64,000 nucleotides of DNA from Prochlorothrix hollandica PCC 9006 = CALU 1027 (lineage in GTDB: Bacteria > Cyanobacteriota > Cyanobacteriia > Prochlorotrichales > Prochlorotrichaceae). Location of the stretch: the NCBI RefSeq assembly GCF_000332315.1, contig NZ_KB235933.1, positions 773,101 to 837,100 on the forward strand. Reading direction: 5' to 3'. A model generated the notes under the pieces. The model was not told where the DNA came from. It did not search any database and saw nothing but the letters and a program-made list of their open reading frames with translations. Made by a program: the position numbers and the translations under genes. Below are positions 22,653 to 56,106 of the stretch, piece after piece (position 1 is the first letter of the stretch; every line of letters begins with the position of its first letter).

Positions 22653-22931
22653 GTAATTATTCAGGGGTCCACAGGAGAATGAGGGTTTCAGGCTCTAGAC
22701 AACAGACCTTAGGCGATGTGAGAGGATCCATTTCCCTGGGGTGGGTTCACCGATTTTGGTAGGGGCAATCCCCCCGTGGTTGCCCCGGTTGTAGGTCCCT
22801 AAGAGGGTCGGCACGGGGACGAGAACCCTAGCCGAGGTCGATGGTTCCCAGGTGAAATGCACTCCGTTGATCCGGCTCTGACCGGCGATCGTAGGGCTGA
22901 AACCCTACTCACTTTCCCCCTGAATAGTTAC
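22653..22931. mobile_element. family 4 element with 9-bp target duplication
   Basis: The element runs from GTAATTATTCAGGGG to the inverted CCCCTGAATAGTTAC and is flanked by ACTGTTCCG on both sides (22644-22652 and 22932-22940). Its body is in the opposite orientation to the copy at 35768. The target lies in a family 5 relic. Confidence 0.8.
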
Positions 22932-35767: not shown

Positions 35768-36061
35768 GTAACTATTCAGGGGGAAACTATTCAGGGGGAA
35801 AGTGAGTAGGGTTTCAGCCCCACGATCGCCGGTCAGAGCCGAATCAACGAGGTGCATTTTACCTGGGAACCATCGGCCTCGGGTAGGGTTCTCGCCCCCG
35901 GGCCGACCCTCTTGGCGACCCACAACCGGGGCAACCACGGGGGGATTGCCCCTACCAAAATCGGTGAACCCACCCCAGTGACATGGACCCTCTCCAATCG
36001 CCTAAAGTCTGTTGTCTAGAGCCTGAAACCCTCATTCTCCTGTGGACCCCTGAATAATTAC
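35768..36061. repeat. family 4 element
   Basis: GTAACTATTCAGGGGG is present twice at the left end, and the right end is GTGGACCCCTGAATAATTAC. The body matches the copies at 5570 and 22653. No flanking direct repeat is visible. Confidence 0.75.
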
Positions 36062-48912: not shown

Positions 48913-49220
48913 ACGCTACACGCTCCCGATATTGAAAGATTCCTCGAACATCCCCGGTTTCTGATGGAGCAACGCAGACCCGTTAACAACCCCGCCCCAG
49001 AAACCGGGGATCTGTGCTTTACGAGTCTCGTGCCATCGGGGATCTATGCTTCACGAGACTCGTCCCGATCGTCAGCCACGAGTGAGGAATCACTCCGCCA
49101 TTTCTGGCATTTCCCTGGAATTCCTCAGAAAACTATAAAGAAGTTCATAGGTCTTAAAACAAAGCATTAAAAACCGTCAGCCCGCGATCGAAGTCATCAA
49201 ACGGTGACGTATAACAGACT

Positions 49221-49271
49221 TAATCTATAGACGTTATCTACAAACGTTATCTACAAACGTAATCTACAGAC
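49221..49271. repeat. 13-bp tandem repeat
   Basis: Units ACGTTATCTACAA (three to four, the last degenerate). A family 2 element begins 12 bp further on. Confidence 0.75.
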
Positions 49272-49282
49272 GCAGAACAAAC

Positions 49283-49381
49283 GGGCACCTCGAAAAATCC
49301 AAATTCTCGCCCCTGTGCCAACGCAAGAATAGGGGTTGTGGCGGGCGGCGAAGCCGCCCGCCACAATTAATCGAGGTGCCC
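49283..49381. mobile_element. family 2 element with 4-bp target duplication (AAAC)
   Basis: A 99-bp element, GGGCACCTCGAAAAATCC ... ATTAATCGAGGTGCCC, flanked by AAAC at 49279-49282 and 49382-49385. It lies about 70 bp upstream of the SSADH gene. The flanks are part of a short-repeat region, so the match could partly pre-exist. Confidence 0.8.
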
Positions 49382-49451
49382 AAACGTAGAACAAACATTG
49401 CTAAGGTATTAGACCTGCCAGCGGGGTTTGCAGTTAGGAGGAACGATCGCC

Positions 49452-50843
49452 GTGAGTATTACTACCATCAATCCAGCCACCGGAGTTAAGATCAAAGACG
49501 TTGAACCCATCACCCCCGCAGCCCTAGAGGCTAAATTGGTATTGGCAACGGCAGCCTTTGAACGCCACCGCCGCACCTCATTTTACGATCGCGCTAGCAA
49601 ACTACGCCGAGTAGCTGATCTCCTGGAAGCCCGCCAAGCCGATCTGGGGAAACTGATGACCCTGGAAATGGGCAAGCCCCTCAAAGGAGCCATGGCCGAA
49701 GTGGTGAAATGTGCCATGGTCTGCCGTTACTATGCCGATCATGGGGAAGATTTCTTAGCAGATAGTCCGGCCCAAACCGATGCCAGCCACAGCTATGTGC
49801 GCTATGAACCCCTGGGGATTATTCTGGCGGTGATGCCCTGGAACTTCCCCTTTTGGCAAGTGTTGCGCTTTGCGGCTCCGACCCTGATGGCGGGCAATGT
49901 GGCCTTGCTCAAACATGCCTCCAACGTGCCCCAGTGTGCCCAAGCCATTGAAGACCTGTTGCGGGAAGCGGGGTTTGAGGCGGGGGTGTTCCAGAATCTG
50001 CCCCTGGAGGCCAACCGGGTGGTGGGGCTGGTGCAGGACGATCGCGTTAAAGCCGCCACCCTCACCGGTAGTGAACTGGCCGGGTCCAGCTTAGCGGCGG
50101 CCTGTGGCAGTGTCATCAAAAAAACTGTCCTGGAACTGGGGGGCAGTGATCCCTTTATCGTCACCCCCAGCGCCGATCTGGCCACCGCCGCCCGCATCGG
50201 TACCCAGGCCCGGATGCTCAACAACGGCCAGTCTTGCATTGCCGCCAAGCGCTTTATTGTGGTGGATTCGGTGGCCGATGCCTTTACGGACTATCTGGTG
50301 CAGGAGTTTCTGGCCCTGAAGGTGGGGGATCCCCTGGACTTGGCCACGGACATCGGACCCTTAGCCACGCCGGGGATTCTGGCGGAGTTGGATCAACAGG
50401 TGCAAACCTGTCTGCGCCTGGGGGCAAAAGCCTTGGTGGGGGGGCAGTCCCTCCAGGGTAGCGATCGCCTCCCGGCAGATCTGCGATCGGGCTATTTCTA
50501 TACCCCCACCCTGTTGGCGGATTTTCCACCGGGCACCCCCGCCGATCAGGAGGAATTCTTTGGACCGGTGGCGCTGCTGTTCCGGGTGGCGGACTTGGAT
50601 GAAGCCATTGCCCTGGCCAATTCCACTAGTTTTGGCCTGGGAGCCAGTGCCTGGACGACAGTGGAGGCGGAGCGCGATCGCTTGATCCAAGATTTGGAAG
50701 CCGGAGCGGTGTTTATCAATGGGCTGGTGAAGTCCGACCCCCGGTTACCCTTTGGCGGCATTAAGCGATCGGGCTATGGTCGGGAGTTGGGCCAGGATGG
50801 GATGCGAGAATTTGTTAACGCCAAAACCGTTTGGATTAAGTAA
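49452..50843 (+). CDS. gabD: succinic semialdehyde dehydrogenase
   Basis: 463 residues from GTG 49452 (VSITTINPATGVKIKD), preceded by TTAGGAGG at 49434-49441, which decides the start. Aldehyde dehydrogenase features: VMPWNFPFWQVLRF, catalytic Glu in LELGGSDPFIV, catalytic Cys in NNGQSCIAAKRF, EEFFGPVALLFRV. With the decarboxylase gene 480 bp downstream it forms the two-step cyanobacterial bypass of 2-oxoglutarate dehydrogenase: 2-oxoglutarate to succinic semialdehyde to succinate. This pair was characterised in Synechococcus PCC 7002. Coenzyme preference is not evident by eye. Confidence 0.92.
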   Translation: MSITTINPATGVKIKDVEPITPAALEAKLVLATAAFERHRRTSFYDRASKLRRVADLLEARQADLGKLMTLEMGKPLKGAMAEVVKCAMVCRYYADHGEDFLADSPAQTDASHSYVRYEPLGIILAVMPWNFPFWQVLRFAAPTLMAGNVALLKHASNVPQCAQAIEDLLREAGFEAGVFQNLPLEANRVVGLVQDDRVKAATLTGSELAGSSLAAACGSVIKKTVLELGGSDPFIVTPSADLATAARIGTQARMLNNGQSCIAAKRFIVVDSVADAFTDYLVQEFLALKVGDPLDLATDIGPLATPGILAELDQQVQTCLRLGAKALVGGQSLQGSDRLPADLRSGYFYTPTLLADFPPGTPADQEEFFGPVALLFRVADLDEAIALANSTSFGLGASAWTTVEAERDRLIQDLEAGAVFINGLVKSDPRLPFGGIKRSGYGRELGQDGMREFVNAKTVWIK

Positions 50844-50852
50844 ATTTGTCCC

Positions 50853-51084
50853 AGGTCAGAGCCGGATCAACGGGATGCATTTCACCTGGGAACCCTCGAC
50901 CTCGGGTAGGGTTCTCGCCCCCGGGCCGACCCTCTTGGCAACCCACAGCCGGGGCAACCACGGGGGGATTGCCCCTACCCAAATCGGTGAACCCACCTAA
51001 GTGAAATGGACCCTCTCAAATCGCCTAAGGTCTGTTGTTTAGAGCCTGAAACCCTCATTCTCCTGTGGACCCCTGAATCATTAC
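50853..51084. repeat. family 4 element, left end missing
   Basis: Starts in the 'gtcagagccggatcaacggg' body, with the GCAACCACGGGGGGATTGCCC-type hairpin, and ends GGACCCCTGAATCATTAC. It separates the two TCA-shunt genes together with the next element. Confidence 0.7.
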
Positions 51085-51090
51085 ACCCAG

Positions 51091-51193
51091 TACAGCAGTC
51101 CTAAATGGGTCGTGTGGTGTGCCCCCGGAGGGGGCACACCACACCAAGGGTTTCAGCCGTCGAGATCCTTACAACTGATTTAGGGTTGCTGTA
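51091..51193. mobile_element. family 1 MITE-like element, copy 9
   Basis: TA-bounded 103-bp copy with a perfect central GTGTGCCCCC/GGGGGCACAC hairpin. It lies between the SSADH and 2-oxoglutarate decarboxylase genes, 133 bp before the latter's start. Confidence 0.88.
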
Positions 51194-51325
51194 GGGGCGG
51201 GGTTTCCCCGCCCAATGCAGAATCTTTTGTCAGTCACGCAGTACCAAACCTCTCCTGGGGACTGTTTTTAGACCGGTTTTTAAGACGGTTGTGCAGACCC
51301 CCTTTCACCCTCACCCAGGACCTTT

Positions 51326-52963
51326 ATGAACACCGCAGAATTGTTGATCCAATGCCTAGAAAATGAAGGGGTTGAATATATCTTTGGGCTACCGGGAGAA
51401 GAAAACCTCCATGTTTTAGAAGCCCTTCAAGGGAGTTCCATTCAGTTTATTACCACCCGCCATGAACAGGGGGCCGCTTTTATGGCCGATGTTTATGGAC
51501 GACTGACCGGGAAAGCGGGGGTTTGCCTGTCTACCCTGGGTCCGGGGGCCACCAACTTGATGACGGGAGTGGCTGATGCCAACTTGGACGGAGCGCCCTT
51601 GGTGGCCATTACGGGACAGGTGGGCACCGATCGGATGCACATTGAATCCCACCAATATTTAGACCTGGTGGCCATGTTTAACCCGGTCACCAAATGGAAC
51701 ACCCAAATTGTCCGGCCCAATAATACTCCGGAAATTGTCCGTAAAGCCTTCAAACAGTCCCAATCGGAAAAACCGGGGGCCGTCCACATTGACTTGCCGG
51801 AAAACATTGCCGCCATGGCAGCGGAGGGAAAAGCCCTCAAGCGGGATAACCAGGAAAAAACCTTTGCAGCCTACCATGGCTTAAATCAGGCGGCTACTCT
51901 GATTTCCCAGGCGGTTAATCCCCTGATTTTGGTGGGGAACGGGGCCATTCGGGCCAATGCCAGCGAAGCCCTGACGGAGTTTGCCACCCAGTTACAAATT
52001 CCCGTGGCCAATACCTTTATGGGCAAAGGGGTGATTCCCTATACCCATCCCCTGGCCCTGTGGACTGTGGGGTTGCAGCAGCGGGATTTGATTAGCTGTG
52101 GCTTCGATCGCACCGATCTCGTCATTGCTGTTGGCTATGATCTCATTGAATATTCCCCCAAACGCTGGAACGCCGAGGGCAAGATTCCCATTATTCACCT
52201 AGGCAATAACCCCGCTGAAATTGACAGCAGCTATATCCCAGCGGTGGAAGTGGTGGGGGATATTTCCGACTCCCTGATGGAAATTCTGCGGCGCACCGAT
52301 CGCAGCCAAAAAGCCAAGCCCTACGCCACCAGTCTCCGGCCCGGCCTTTGTGCCGACTATGAGCAATATGCTAAGGATGAGGAATTTCCCGTTAAGCCCC
52401 AAAAAATTATTTACGATCTGCGATCGGTGATGGGGGATGAAGACATTGTGATTTCCGATGTGGGTGCCCATAAAATGTGGATGGCCCGCCATTACCACTG
52501 TTCCCGCCCCAACACCTGCATCATTTCCAATGGGTTTGCAGCCATGGGGATTGCCATCCCCGGAGCCTTGGCCGCGAAGTTGGTTTACCCCGATCGCAAG
52601 GTGGTGGCAGTGACCGGAGATGGGGGCTTTATGATGAACTCCCAGGAGTTGGAAACGGCCCTGCGTATTGGCACCGCCTTTGTGACCTTGATCTTCCATG
52701 ATGGGGGCTATGGTCTCATTGAATGGAAGCAACAAAACCACTTTGGCCACTCGTCCTTTATCAAGTTTAATAACCCTGATTTTGTCAAGTTTGCCGAAAG
52801 CATGGGTCTCAAAGGCTACCGCGTGGAAACCACAGCCGATCTGGTTCCCATCCTCCAGGAAGCCCTAGCCCAGGATGTGCCAACGGTGATCGACTGTCCT
52901 GTGGACTATCGGGAAAACCTCATGTTCACCAAGAAAGCAGGTCAATTACTCTGTTCTACCTAG
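51326..52963 (+). CDS. 2-oxoglutarate decarboxylase (annotated elsewhere as acetolactate synthase large subunit)
   Basis: A 545-residue thiamine diphosphate enzyme. The catalytic Glu lies in TTRHEQGAAFMADVYGR; the ThDP/Mg motif begins TGDGGFMMNSQELETALRIG and ends FHDGGYGLIEWKQ. The central domain is normal (LILVGNGAIRANASEALTEF). By motifs alone it is an AlsS/IlvB-type protein. The neighbouring SSADH gene in the same orientation argues for the 2-oxoglutarate decarboxylase of the cyanobacterial TCA shunt. No acetolactate synthase small subunit or ilvC is nearby. ATG 51326 (MNTAELLIQCLENEGVEYIFGLPG). Confidence 0.85.
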   Translation: MNTAELLIQCLENEGVEYIFGLPGEENLHVLEALQGSSIQFITTRHEQGAAFMADVYGRLTGKAGVCLSTLGPGATNLMTGVADANLDGAPLVAITGQVGTDRMHIESHQYLDLVAMFNPVTKWNTQIVRPNNTPEIVRKAFKQSQSEKPGAVHIDLPENIAAMAAEGKALKRDNQEKTFAAYHGLNQAATLISQAVNPLILVGNGAIRANASEALTEFATQLQIPVANTFMGKGVIPYTHPLALWTVGLQQRDLISCGFDRTDLVIAVGYDLIEYSPKRWNAEGKIPIIHLGNNPAEIDSSYIPAVEVVGDISDSLMEILRRTDRSQKAKPYATSLRPGLCADYEQYAKDEEFPVKPQKIIYDLRSVMGDEDIVISDVGAHKMWMARHYHCSRPNTCIISNGFAAMGIAIPGALAAKLVYPDRKVVAVTGDGGFMMNSQELETALRIGTAFVTLIFHDGGYGLIEWKQQNHFGHSSFIKFNNPDFVKFAESMGLKGYRVETTADLVPILQEALAQDVPTVIDCPVDYRENLMFTKKAGQLLCST

Positions 52964-52973
52964 GACGCTGTTC

Positions 52974-53240
52974 GAGAGTTTCACTCAAATAATGCTGTTG
53001 GTCGATGGCGATCGCTAGCATCTGTTGGCCTGGGTCGTGATGCCTCATCCCATTGGCTGGACCCTCTCGAACGTTGAGATGGGATTGTCGAGTTGTACTC
53101 GACCCTAAGCCGACTACAAGTCGGCTCTCCCAGGGGGATTGTCGAGTCTCCCAAGGGGATTGTCGAGTCTCCCAAGGGGATTGTCGAGTCTCCCAAGGGG
53201 ATTGTCGAGTTGTACTCGACATTATTGGAGTGAAACTCTC
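52974..53240. mobile_element. family 3 element, copy B (inverted), with 8-bp flanking repeat (one mismatch)
   Basis: Ends GAGAGTTTCACTCAAATAATG and ATTATTGGAGTGAAACTCTC, flanked by CGCTGTTC (52966-52973) and CGCTGCTC (53241-53248). It has three internal 21-bp CTCGACAATCCCCTTGGGA-type units against two in copy A. It starts 11 bp after the decarboxylase stop. Confidence 0.75.
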
Positions 53241-53310
53241 CGCTGCTCCACTTAAACACTGTTCTACTTAAACGCTGCTCCACTTAAACACTGTTCTACT
53301 TAAACGCTGT
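53241..53310. repeat. 16-bp tandem repeat, about four units
   Basis: CTGCTCCACTTAAACA alternating with CTGTTCTACTTAAACG, between the family 3 element and the GAF gene stop. Confidence 0.8.
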
Positions 53311-53326
53311 TGCACCCTTGGGGGGG

Positions 53327-53923
53327 CTAGCGTTTGGTGCGGTTCGCGATGATTTGGGCGTTTTCCACCAGGAGGGTCATGGTGTCGGTGCTGAGGAGTA
53401 ATTGTTGGATCAAGGCATCCCCAAAGTAACCGGGCTGGGAATGCATCAGGGTCAGGATGCCCAACACCACCTTGTTGCGCATCAGGGGCACTGCCAGGGC
53501 CGATCGAGTATCATAGGGCTGGCTAGACAGTTGGATCCAACGCTCATCGGTGTAGGTATCCTCCACCATCCCCAGTTGCTGATGGCGATAGACCCAACCC
53601 GCTAGCCCTTGATTTAAAACTTGGCCAATGAGGTTTTGCTTCATTTCCTGGATCACGGGACCCCGCGCCAAAATACTTTCCACAAAGACCCCCGATCGAT
53701 CAATCAGAAAAAGACTACCCACCTCAGCTCCGGACACCTTGTTAGCCACCTGCAAAATGTGCTGAAGGGTAGATTTCATTAAAAACTGGCTATTGGTGGT
53801 GCGAGCAAGATTGATGGCACCCTTGAGTAAATCCTGGTTCGTGCCATAGGCTACCTTTAGGGCTTGCAACTGATGGAGTTCGTCGGGGAAGGTGGTCAGC
53901 GATGGAACAAAGGTTGCGGACAT
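53327..53923 (-). CDS. GAF-domain protein
   Basis: A 198-residue protein consisting of one GAF domain (about 35-190): LMKSTLQHILQVANKVSGAEVGSLFLIDRSGVFVESILARG, QVLNQGLAGWVYRHQQLGMVEDTYTDERW, RSALAVPLMRNKVVLGILTLMHSQPGYF. There is no output domain and no bilin-binding Cys pattern, so it is probably a small-molecule or protein-binding sensor whose partner is elsewhere. ATG 53923 (MSATFVPSLTTFP). Function unknown. Confidence 0.88.
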   Translation of the reverse strand: MSATFVPSLTTFPDELHQLQALKVAYGTNQDLLKGAINLARTTNSQFLMKSTLQHILQVANKVSGAEVGSLFLIDRSGVFVESILARGPVIQEMKQNLIGQVLNQGLAGWVYRHQQLGMVEDTYTDERWIQLSSQPYDTRSALAVPLMRNKVVLGILTLMHSQPGYFGDALIQQLLLSTDTMTLLVENAQIIANRTKR

Positions 53924-55795: not shown

Positions 55796-55849
55796 CCGGT
55801 GTCCCCCAGGAGTGGGTCCTAGGACACCCGGATGTCAGTTCCCCTCCGC

Positions 55850-56106
55850 TCCCCCCTGGGAGAGCCGACTTGCAGTCGGCATTGGGTCGAGTACAACTCG
55901 ACAATCCCCCCTGGGAGAGCCGACTTGTAGTCGGCATTGGGTCGAGTACAACTCGACAATCCCCCCTGGGAGAGCCGACTTGCAGTCGGCTGTGGGTCGA
56001 GTACAACTCGACAATCCCCCCTGGGAGAGCCGACTTGCAGTCGGCATTGGGTCGAGTACAACTCGACAATCCCAGGTGATGGGTTTGTGTTGAGTGAAAC
56101 TTTCTG
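55850..56106. repeat. family 3 array of four tandem hairpin units
   Basis: About 58-bp units, each AGCCGACTT(G/T)(C/T)AGTCGGC plus GGTCGAGTACAACTCGACA plus CCCCCTGGGAG, repeated four times. The degenerate end TTGAGTGAAACTTTCTGA (56089-56106) matches the family terminal repeat. It lies between the convergent dacB and amidase genes and could stop transcription from both sides. Confidence 0.8.

Follow-up and report, generated by a model that had tools for sequence, protein, structure and literature searches.

We found that the window analysed here, a stretch of 64,000 nucleotides of the Prochlorothrix hollandica PCC 9006 genome, very probably holds a standard ssaD-ogdA gene pair in a genome overrun by repeats, in which a spacer of ordinary length was extended by one mobile element (A) and then by another (B), most likely with near-neutral effect. 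The two genes, ssaD for succinic semialdehyde dehydrogenase (49452-50843) and ogdA for a predicted 2-oxoglutarate decarboxylase (51326-52963), have intact reading frames and both lie on the forward strand. The original prediction was right about their positions and shared direction, while the spacer it had given as 480 bp measures 482 bp; of the two mobile elements it had placed there, both were recovered as high-copy elements, the first being a truncated copy. The median gap in 87 other ssaD-ogdA pairs is 123 bp, and the excess length here is accounted for by the two insertions, which total 334 bp and leave 148 bp of spacer when subtracted (482 - 334). Gaps of 511 to 1837 bp occur in 4 of those 87 pairs, so long gaps are not unique to the Prochlorothrix locus.

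Mobile elements in and around the spacer

Element A (50854-51084, forward strand) starts 10 bp past the ssaD stop codon and is a miniature inverted-repeat transposable element (MITE), as its terminal repeats and target duplication indicate. The window copy is truncated, lacking the left 48 bp that include the left terminal repeat and that are present in the copies at window positions 22653-22931 and at L111:2492-2770. The A pattern gave 165 whole-genome matches vs 0 for the reversed control. Fourteen copies are complete, with both 15-bp terminal inverted repeats (up to 3 mismatches), a set from which L112:10410-10728 (poor ends) and an overlapping reading at window position 35783 were left out. 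The 9-bp target duplication is exact in 6 of these 14 and one more copy has a duplication of 8 bp, the chance of a match at 8 or more of the 9 positions being 0.010. Within the DDE_Tnp_1 family, the one searched for a parent insertion sequence, none of the 14 loci was bracketed by A ends.

Element B (51091-51193, forward strand; ends TACAGCAGTCCTAAAT and ATTTAGGGTTGCTGTA) is a 103-bp MITE of an IS630-type insertion sequence and contains an inner hairpin with a 15-bp perfect stem at 51112-51144. Its 31-bp pattern (up to 3 mismatches) was matched 532 times in the whole genome and never by the reversed control. The parent IS630-type insertion sequence is still resident in the genome, as all four DDE_3 transposase loci (L131-L134) have B-like ends on both left and right, with 22 of the left 23 bp and 21 of the right 26 bp identical when counted by eye. 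TA target duplication was observed for B in two single cases: at L119, removal of B with one TA restores the target duplication of an A copy at 8 of 9 positions, and at L122, where B lies within a D element, the D site has the matching length and carries one TA once B is removed. In being short and non-coding, with inverted ends, a TA target and ends common with a resident DDE_3 element, B resembles the IS630/Tc1-type MITEs of other bacteria, from which it differs in its high number of 532 pattern matches in 5.65 Mb; for ERIC in Photorhabdus, 711 copies are cited as a high figure (PMC10969869). The Chunjie MITE in a phosphate-uptake operon of Geobacter likewise lies within an operon, though the element and the genes are others (PMC10969869). 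Elements A and B presumably correspond to the families numbered 4 and 1, respectively, in the original prediction.

Two further repeats accompany the pair, beyond the elements predicted originally. Repeat C, at about 51191-51236 on the forward strand and abutting B directly downstream, is a short palindromic repeat (GGGGCGGGGTTTCCCCGCCC) that folds with -20.9 kcal/mol; window positions 51191-51240 gave 8 matches in 464 kb with E up to 1e-3, itself counted. Element D (49282-49381, forward strand), a repeat of about 100 bp with inverted ends GGGCACCTCGA and TCGAGGTGCCC, lies ~70 bp upstream of ssaD and folds with -62.6 kcal/mol (z -9.99). It had 24 matches in 464 kb, of which 19 were at least 80 bp long, and its pattern had 120 matches in the whole genome vs 0 for the control.

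The ancestral ssaD-ogdA spacer probably measured about 100-150 bp, an ordinary length, and A would have inserted into it as a MITE making 9-bp target duplications. A later deletion probably took the left end of A together with all the spacer DNA beyond the first 10 bp after the ssaD stop codon, and B appears to have inserted at a TA six bases past the right end of A, probably within the remnant of the target duplication of A. We infer the insertion of A before B at this spacer from a comparable site, L119, the single place at which that order is seen.

Repeat load of the genome

Two samples of the genome were compared for their repeat content: a first of 20 stretches (464 kb with the window) hand-picked at round coordinates, which may favour repeats, and a second of 20 more stretches (400 kb) at other round coordinates, on C1, C5 and C9. 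Dispersed repeats found in at least one other stretch made up 8.84% of the first sample and 10.54% of the second, and those found in at least three other stretches 6.08% and 5.12%, respectively. B was present in 57 copies in the first sample, window included, and in 29 in the second. This load of short repeats, about 8-10% of the sampled DNA, is more unusual than the gene pair itself. An insertion hot spot joining A and B was considered, as 5 of 25 A right ends in the first sample lay no more than 12 bp from a B end where 0.44 were expected (P about 1e-4), and was not replicated in the second sample, which gave 0 of 10. The window, chosen for such a pair, contributes 2 of the 5.

Effect of the insertions on expression

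The insertions of A and B are most likely near-neutral spacers, because neither reading frame is interrupted, B lacks the features of a typical intrinsic terminator and B is tolerated between co-directional genes throughout the genome. With genes called by a crude script rather than a standard program, the classified B copies of the first sample (n=53) lay between co-directional, divergent and convergent genes in 24, 19 and 10 cases, which fits intergenic length (p 0.93), and those of the second (n=26) in 17, 8 and 1 cases (p 0.22); copies at stretch edges (4 and 2) or inside a predicted ORF (1) were left unclassed. In both samples B is thus about as frequent between co-directional genes as intergenic length predicts, with no depletion.

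It is unlikely, though physically plausible, since the gap is highly structured (folding z -4.89) and the fold of B takes in nearly its whole length, that B serves as an RNA processing or stability signal setting the ratio of ssaD to ogdA after transcription, either through cleavage of the RNase III type or by blocking 3' ends as ERIC, Correia and REP elements do. A read-through transcript would carry a nearly closed hairpin of 103 nt, and the Correia element is reported to be subject to RNase-mediated cleavage (PMC10969869). Against this, B shows no significant preference for either orientation between co-directional genes, with 16 copies in the same and 8 in the opposite direction in the first sample (p 0.15) and 10 and 7 in the second. 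Decidedly doubtful is the wider reading that the load of short, largely MITE repeats (about 8-10% of the sampled DNA and roughly one fifth of the intergenic DNA of the first sample) comes near the plant share and that B is a widespread transcript-level element shaping operons such as ssaD-ogdA via RNA processing.

The original prediction held that the hairpins may uncouple expression of the two genes. In that case transcription begun at the ssaD promoter would stop at A, B or C, and ogdA would depend on its own promoter or be expressed at a lower level, which we regard as quite improbable. The stability of the hairpins (-64.6 kcal/mol and z -8.81 for B, in addition to the structured gap) speaks for it, as does the occurrence of ogdA without an adjacent ssaD in 15 of 48 genomes, where it must have a promoter of its own. 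However, no T-run follows the hairpins of the spacer, B being succeeded by GGGGCGGGG, and a terminator scan of the spacer returned no terminator-like site, so that intrinsic termination at these hairpins was rejected in spite of their G+C stems. Over 50600-51500 a sigma-70 consensus scan, blind to other promoter types, returned no promoter-like site, the fold of element A is no more stable than those of its shuffles (z -0.10), and B does not cluster at the 3' ends of convergent genes, where 10 of the 53 copies classified in the first sample and 1 of the 26 in the second lie. The uncoupling claim is left unsupported by these results and by the lack of depletion of B between co-directional genes, and near-neutral insertion remains the preferred reading; an experiment could still reveal an effect of the hairpins on expression through processing or polarity.

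Two other candidates for regulation were rejected. A search of Rfam over 49000-53500 (E up to 1) for known RNA families such as riboswitches or sRNAs gave three matches, all below their gathering thresholds (the best being tfoR with 27.3 bits vs 70). The one NtcA site, with one mismatch at 51159, lies inside B and hence within a mobile repeat.

Enzymes of the pair and their gene order

SsaD, of 463 aa, begins with GTG behind an AGGAGG at 49437-49442 and belongs to the aldehyde dehydrogenase fold family (PF00171, 408 bits). Its best solved match, over its full length (residues 1-463), is 4it9, 'Succinate-semialdehyde dehydrogenase' (E 4.4e-174). With NCBIfam NF006915 (NADP-dependent SSADH) it scored 618.3 bits, under the cut-off of 730, and it reached no cut-off among the best 25 of 39 families listed; this restricts the database name of SsaD, not the orthology given by gene order.

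OgdA, of 545 aa, has the architecture of ThDP (TPP) enzymes, with PF02776, PF00205 and PF02775 all over cut-off, and is by its sequence a predicted 2-oxoglutarate decarboxylase. It is 80% identical to the orthologue of Microcystis aeruginosa NIES-4325 (locus L068), presumably MiKGD, and conserves 17 of 17 active-site residues, both catalytic and in contact with alpha-KG, reported for the tested MaKGD (PMC10418658). As a control, the ALS-like paralogue (L149; C9:798665-800299), 35% identical to OgdA, has 5 of 14 checked residues. The prediction that the gene is easily mis-named proved correct, as its usual automatic name is acetolactate synthase and NF006187 'acetolactate synthase large subunit' is matched with 872.9 bits vs a cut-off of 509. 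That it is a true acetolactate synthase is highly improbable, for although NF006378 is also exceeded (528.2 bits, cut-off 510) and its best solved matches are acetolactate synthases, with no solved alpha-KG decarboxylase identified among them, the Microcystis identity and active site stand against it, as do the alpha-KG-contact residues (6/6 vs 1/6 in the paralogue), the paralogue that can fill the ALS role, and the tested Microcystis alpha-KG decarboxylase, for which pyruvate is reported to have yielded no aldehyde (PMC10418658).

These enzyme matches bear out the proposed TCA-shunt pair, in which 2-oxoglutarate would be converted to succinic semialdehyde and CO2 and then to succinate, and the pair appears to be the standard cyanobacterial ssaD-ogdA of this OgdA/SsaD bypass and in itself ordinary. 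The likeness to Synechococcus sp. PCC 7002 also held, the same two enzymes being encoded there by adjacent genes (A2770, A2771) termed an ogdA-ssaD operon (PMC5160925); the Prochlorothrix spacer measures 482 bp and contains two MITEs and a palindromic repeat. Nor are the contexts unrelated in relatives, which were of the same class as Prochlorothrix and none of the same order: of 48 other genomes that have an ogdA-class gene, 33 carry ssaD immediately upstream of it, as do 67 of 80 named loci. The adjacent pair is absent in 15 of the 48, so adjacency is not essential, and Microcystis differs in having no ssaD within 4 kb upstream of the ogdA-class gene in three loci (L068, L070 and L071).

The decarboxylase behind the automatic 'acetolactate synthase' label probably gives the genome its only route recognised by sequence that leads from 2-oxoglutarate to succinate, because 2-OGDH E1, glutamate decarboxylase and isocitrate lyase all stayed under their profile cut-offs in the Prochlorothrix genome. 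The ssaD-ogdA locus is a clean case in which MITEs lie inside a gene pair that is widely conserved and the parent insertion sequence of one of them is resident, so that what a bacterial MITE does to a metabolic operon could be measured there.

The ssaD and ogdA gene pair

The genes ssaD (49452-50843, + strand) and ogdA (51326-52963, + strand) are intact and co-directional, with a gap of 482 bp between them. SsaD was recognised as a succinic semialdehyde dehydrogenase by its best match among solved structures, the succinate-semialdehyde dehydrogenase 4it9 (E 4.4e-174, whole length covered), and scored below the NCBIfam cut-off (618.3 vs 730 bits). OgdA carries three TPP-enzyme domains, and the original prediction rightly warned that its gene is easily mis-named acetolactate synthase (ALS), as both the NCBIfam label (acetolactate synthase large subunit, NF006187, 872.9 vs a cut-off of 509) and the best solved-structure matches are ALS. 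PMC10418658 reports mutants and strict specificity for the Microcystis alpha-ketoglutarate decarboxylase and names its residues contacting ThDP or alpha-ketoglutarate, 17 of which we took as a test set. OgdA, 80% identical to the Microcystis NIES-4325 orthologue, was identical at all 17, whereas the ALS-like paralogue of this genome (C9:798665-800299, 35% identical to OgdA), taken as control, kept 5 of 14 checked residues and 1 of 6 alpha-ketoglutarate contacts. These residues identify the gene as ogdA and not ALS, with a predicted decarboxylase activity.

An ogdA-class match (at least 55% identity) was present in 48 of the 58 other genomes searched, and in 33 of these 48, with matches paired by hand, ssaD is the gene immediately upstream, in the same orientation. 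Among the other 15, G020 offers just 204 bp of contig on the upstream side, and G019 and G056 lack a close ssaD. The order was also found in 67 of 80 named loci, which are the best-kept matches of one scan and biased to near relatives, and four of the 13 misses have at most 621 bp of upstream sequence. As the comparison genomes all come from outside the order of the window's genome, the relatives are distant; in most of them the genes did not lie in the unrelated contexts that would count against the pair. The pair is ordinary and already known, being termed an operon in PCC 7002 (PMC5160925). The 87 other pairs measured have a median gap of 123 bp; in four of them the genes are more than 482 bp apart (511, 763, 992 and 1837 bp). 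The 1837-bp gap, in Leptolyngbya sp. PCC 6406, contains an ORF matching DarT (PF14487, 194.3 bits) and after it one resembling what we take to be its macro-domain partner, a toxin-antitoxin-like pair.

Elements within the gap

Element A (50854-51084) starts 10 bp after the ssaD stop. Copies elsewhere reach 48 bp further left, ending in the inverted end GTAACTATTCAGGGG or near it, and exact 9-bp target duplications flank 6 of 14 complete copies, with one more of 8 bp (chance of 8/9 or better, 0.010); the whole genome gave 165 pattern matches and the control 0. Because of this inverted end and the duplications, A is classed by its sequence as a MITE. Compared with the other copies, the one in the window is truncated on the left, through a deletion that took the native sequence next to ssaD with it.

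Element B (51091-51193, 103 bp; 532 whole-genome matches, control 0) has the ends TACAGCAGTCCTAAAT and ATTTAGGGTTGCTGTA; inside it lies a perfect hairpin of 15 bp. All four IS630-type DDE_3 transposase loci have these ends, with 22/23 bases identical on the left and 21/26 on the right, and their shared left end continues into the likely transposase start codon. These common ends identify B as a deletion derivative of a resident IS. The IS copies are about 1.18 kb long (L131 and L132, 1177 bp; L134, 1189 bp), apart from the longer L133 (1307 bp), which is broken; the former three have an open frame of ~380 codons and are a likely transposase source for B. Of 55 aligned copies of B, 20 have C-G and 25 have G-C at pair 33/43 of the inner stem. 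This double change leaves the stem intact; common ancestry, palindrome correction or selection may explain it.

In sample stretch L119, B has inserted at a TA within the target duplication of A: once B and one TA are taken out, the two sides match at 8/9 positions. The window B starts at a TA six bases past the end of A, which fits the same history: B would have inserted into the target duplication of A, whose left copy is now lost. The reverse nesting also occurs: at L120:12853-13058 an A element with a 9-bp duplication has inserted into a B hairpin. Besides, a short palindromic repeat, C, adjoins B. A further element, D, with 120 matches in the whole genome against 0 for the control, is located ~70 bp before the start of ssaD. 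Subtracting A and B leaves a gap of 148 bp, close to the median of 123 bp. The A and B insertions belong to known kinds, in a well-defined setting.

Short-repeat load of the genome

Dispersed repeats common to at least one other stretch make up 8.84% of the DNA in 20 stretches of 20 kb (L111-L130, a non-random set) of this genome (5.65 Mb, 54.7% G+C) and 10.54% in a second set (L213-L232); run on three other cyanobacterial genomes, again with 20 stretches apiece, the identical script gave 0.85, 0.29 and 2.54%. Family-by-family masking with 48 query families, some being fragments of one another, covered 7.69% of the first sample (464 kb with the window included); almost all of this fell outside predicted genes (intergenic share 35.6%). 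A MITE review (PMC10969869) gives 8-10% of the genome for plants and nothing so extreme for prokaryotes, a comparison limited by our counting repeats beyond demonstrated MITEs. A literature search pairing both terms found no paper on miniature inverted-repeat elements in Prochlorothrix. Tandem repeats of a GGGGATTGTCGAGT... unit lie at 53090-53222, beside ogdA, and at 55800-56100, and a family starting TGGGATTGTCGAGT (22 loci in 464 kb) looks related to this unit.

Expression and metabolic setting of the pair

The RNA of B folds along almost its whole length (-64.6 kcal/mol, z -8.81) and the whole gap folds strongly (z -4.89), while A folds no better than shuffles (z -0.10). RNA processing at these hairpins is possible. 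The strong folds also favour the original proposal that the hairpins uncouple ssaD from ogdA, but no T-run follows them, and a scan of 50600-51500 gave no promoter-like site and a single terminator-like site, inside ogdA and fewer than in shuffles. Moreover, a general terminator would cluster at convergent 3' ends and shun co-directional gaps, whereas B did neither: the 53 classified copies of the first sample (24/19/10 co-directional/divergent/convergent) fit intergenic length (p 0.93), as did those of the second (17/8/1, p 0.22). The strand bias of B was not significant in either sample (16 to 8, p 0.15; 10 to 7). As no T-run follows the hairpins, the gap holds no terminator-like site and B placement shows no significant bias, uncoupling is a testable idea that is unsupported.

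Searches of the window's genome for 2-OGDH E1 (best 18 bits vs a cut-off of 770), glutamate decarboxylase (37.4 vs 380.4 bits) and isocitrate lyase (55.3 vs 275.9 bits) all remained below cut-off, which probably leaves the SsaD/OgdA bypass as the one recognised way for it to turn 2-oxoglutarate into succinate. According to a proposal in PMC10418658, decarboxylase activity is higher where glutamate decarboxylase is missing; with that enzyme below cut-off here, the proposal predicts that OgdA of this genome would be an efficient enzyme.
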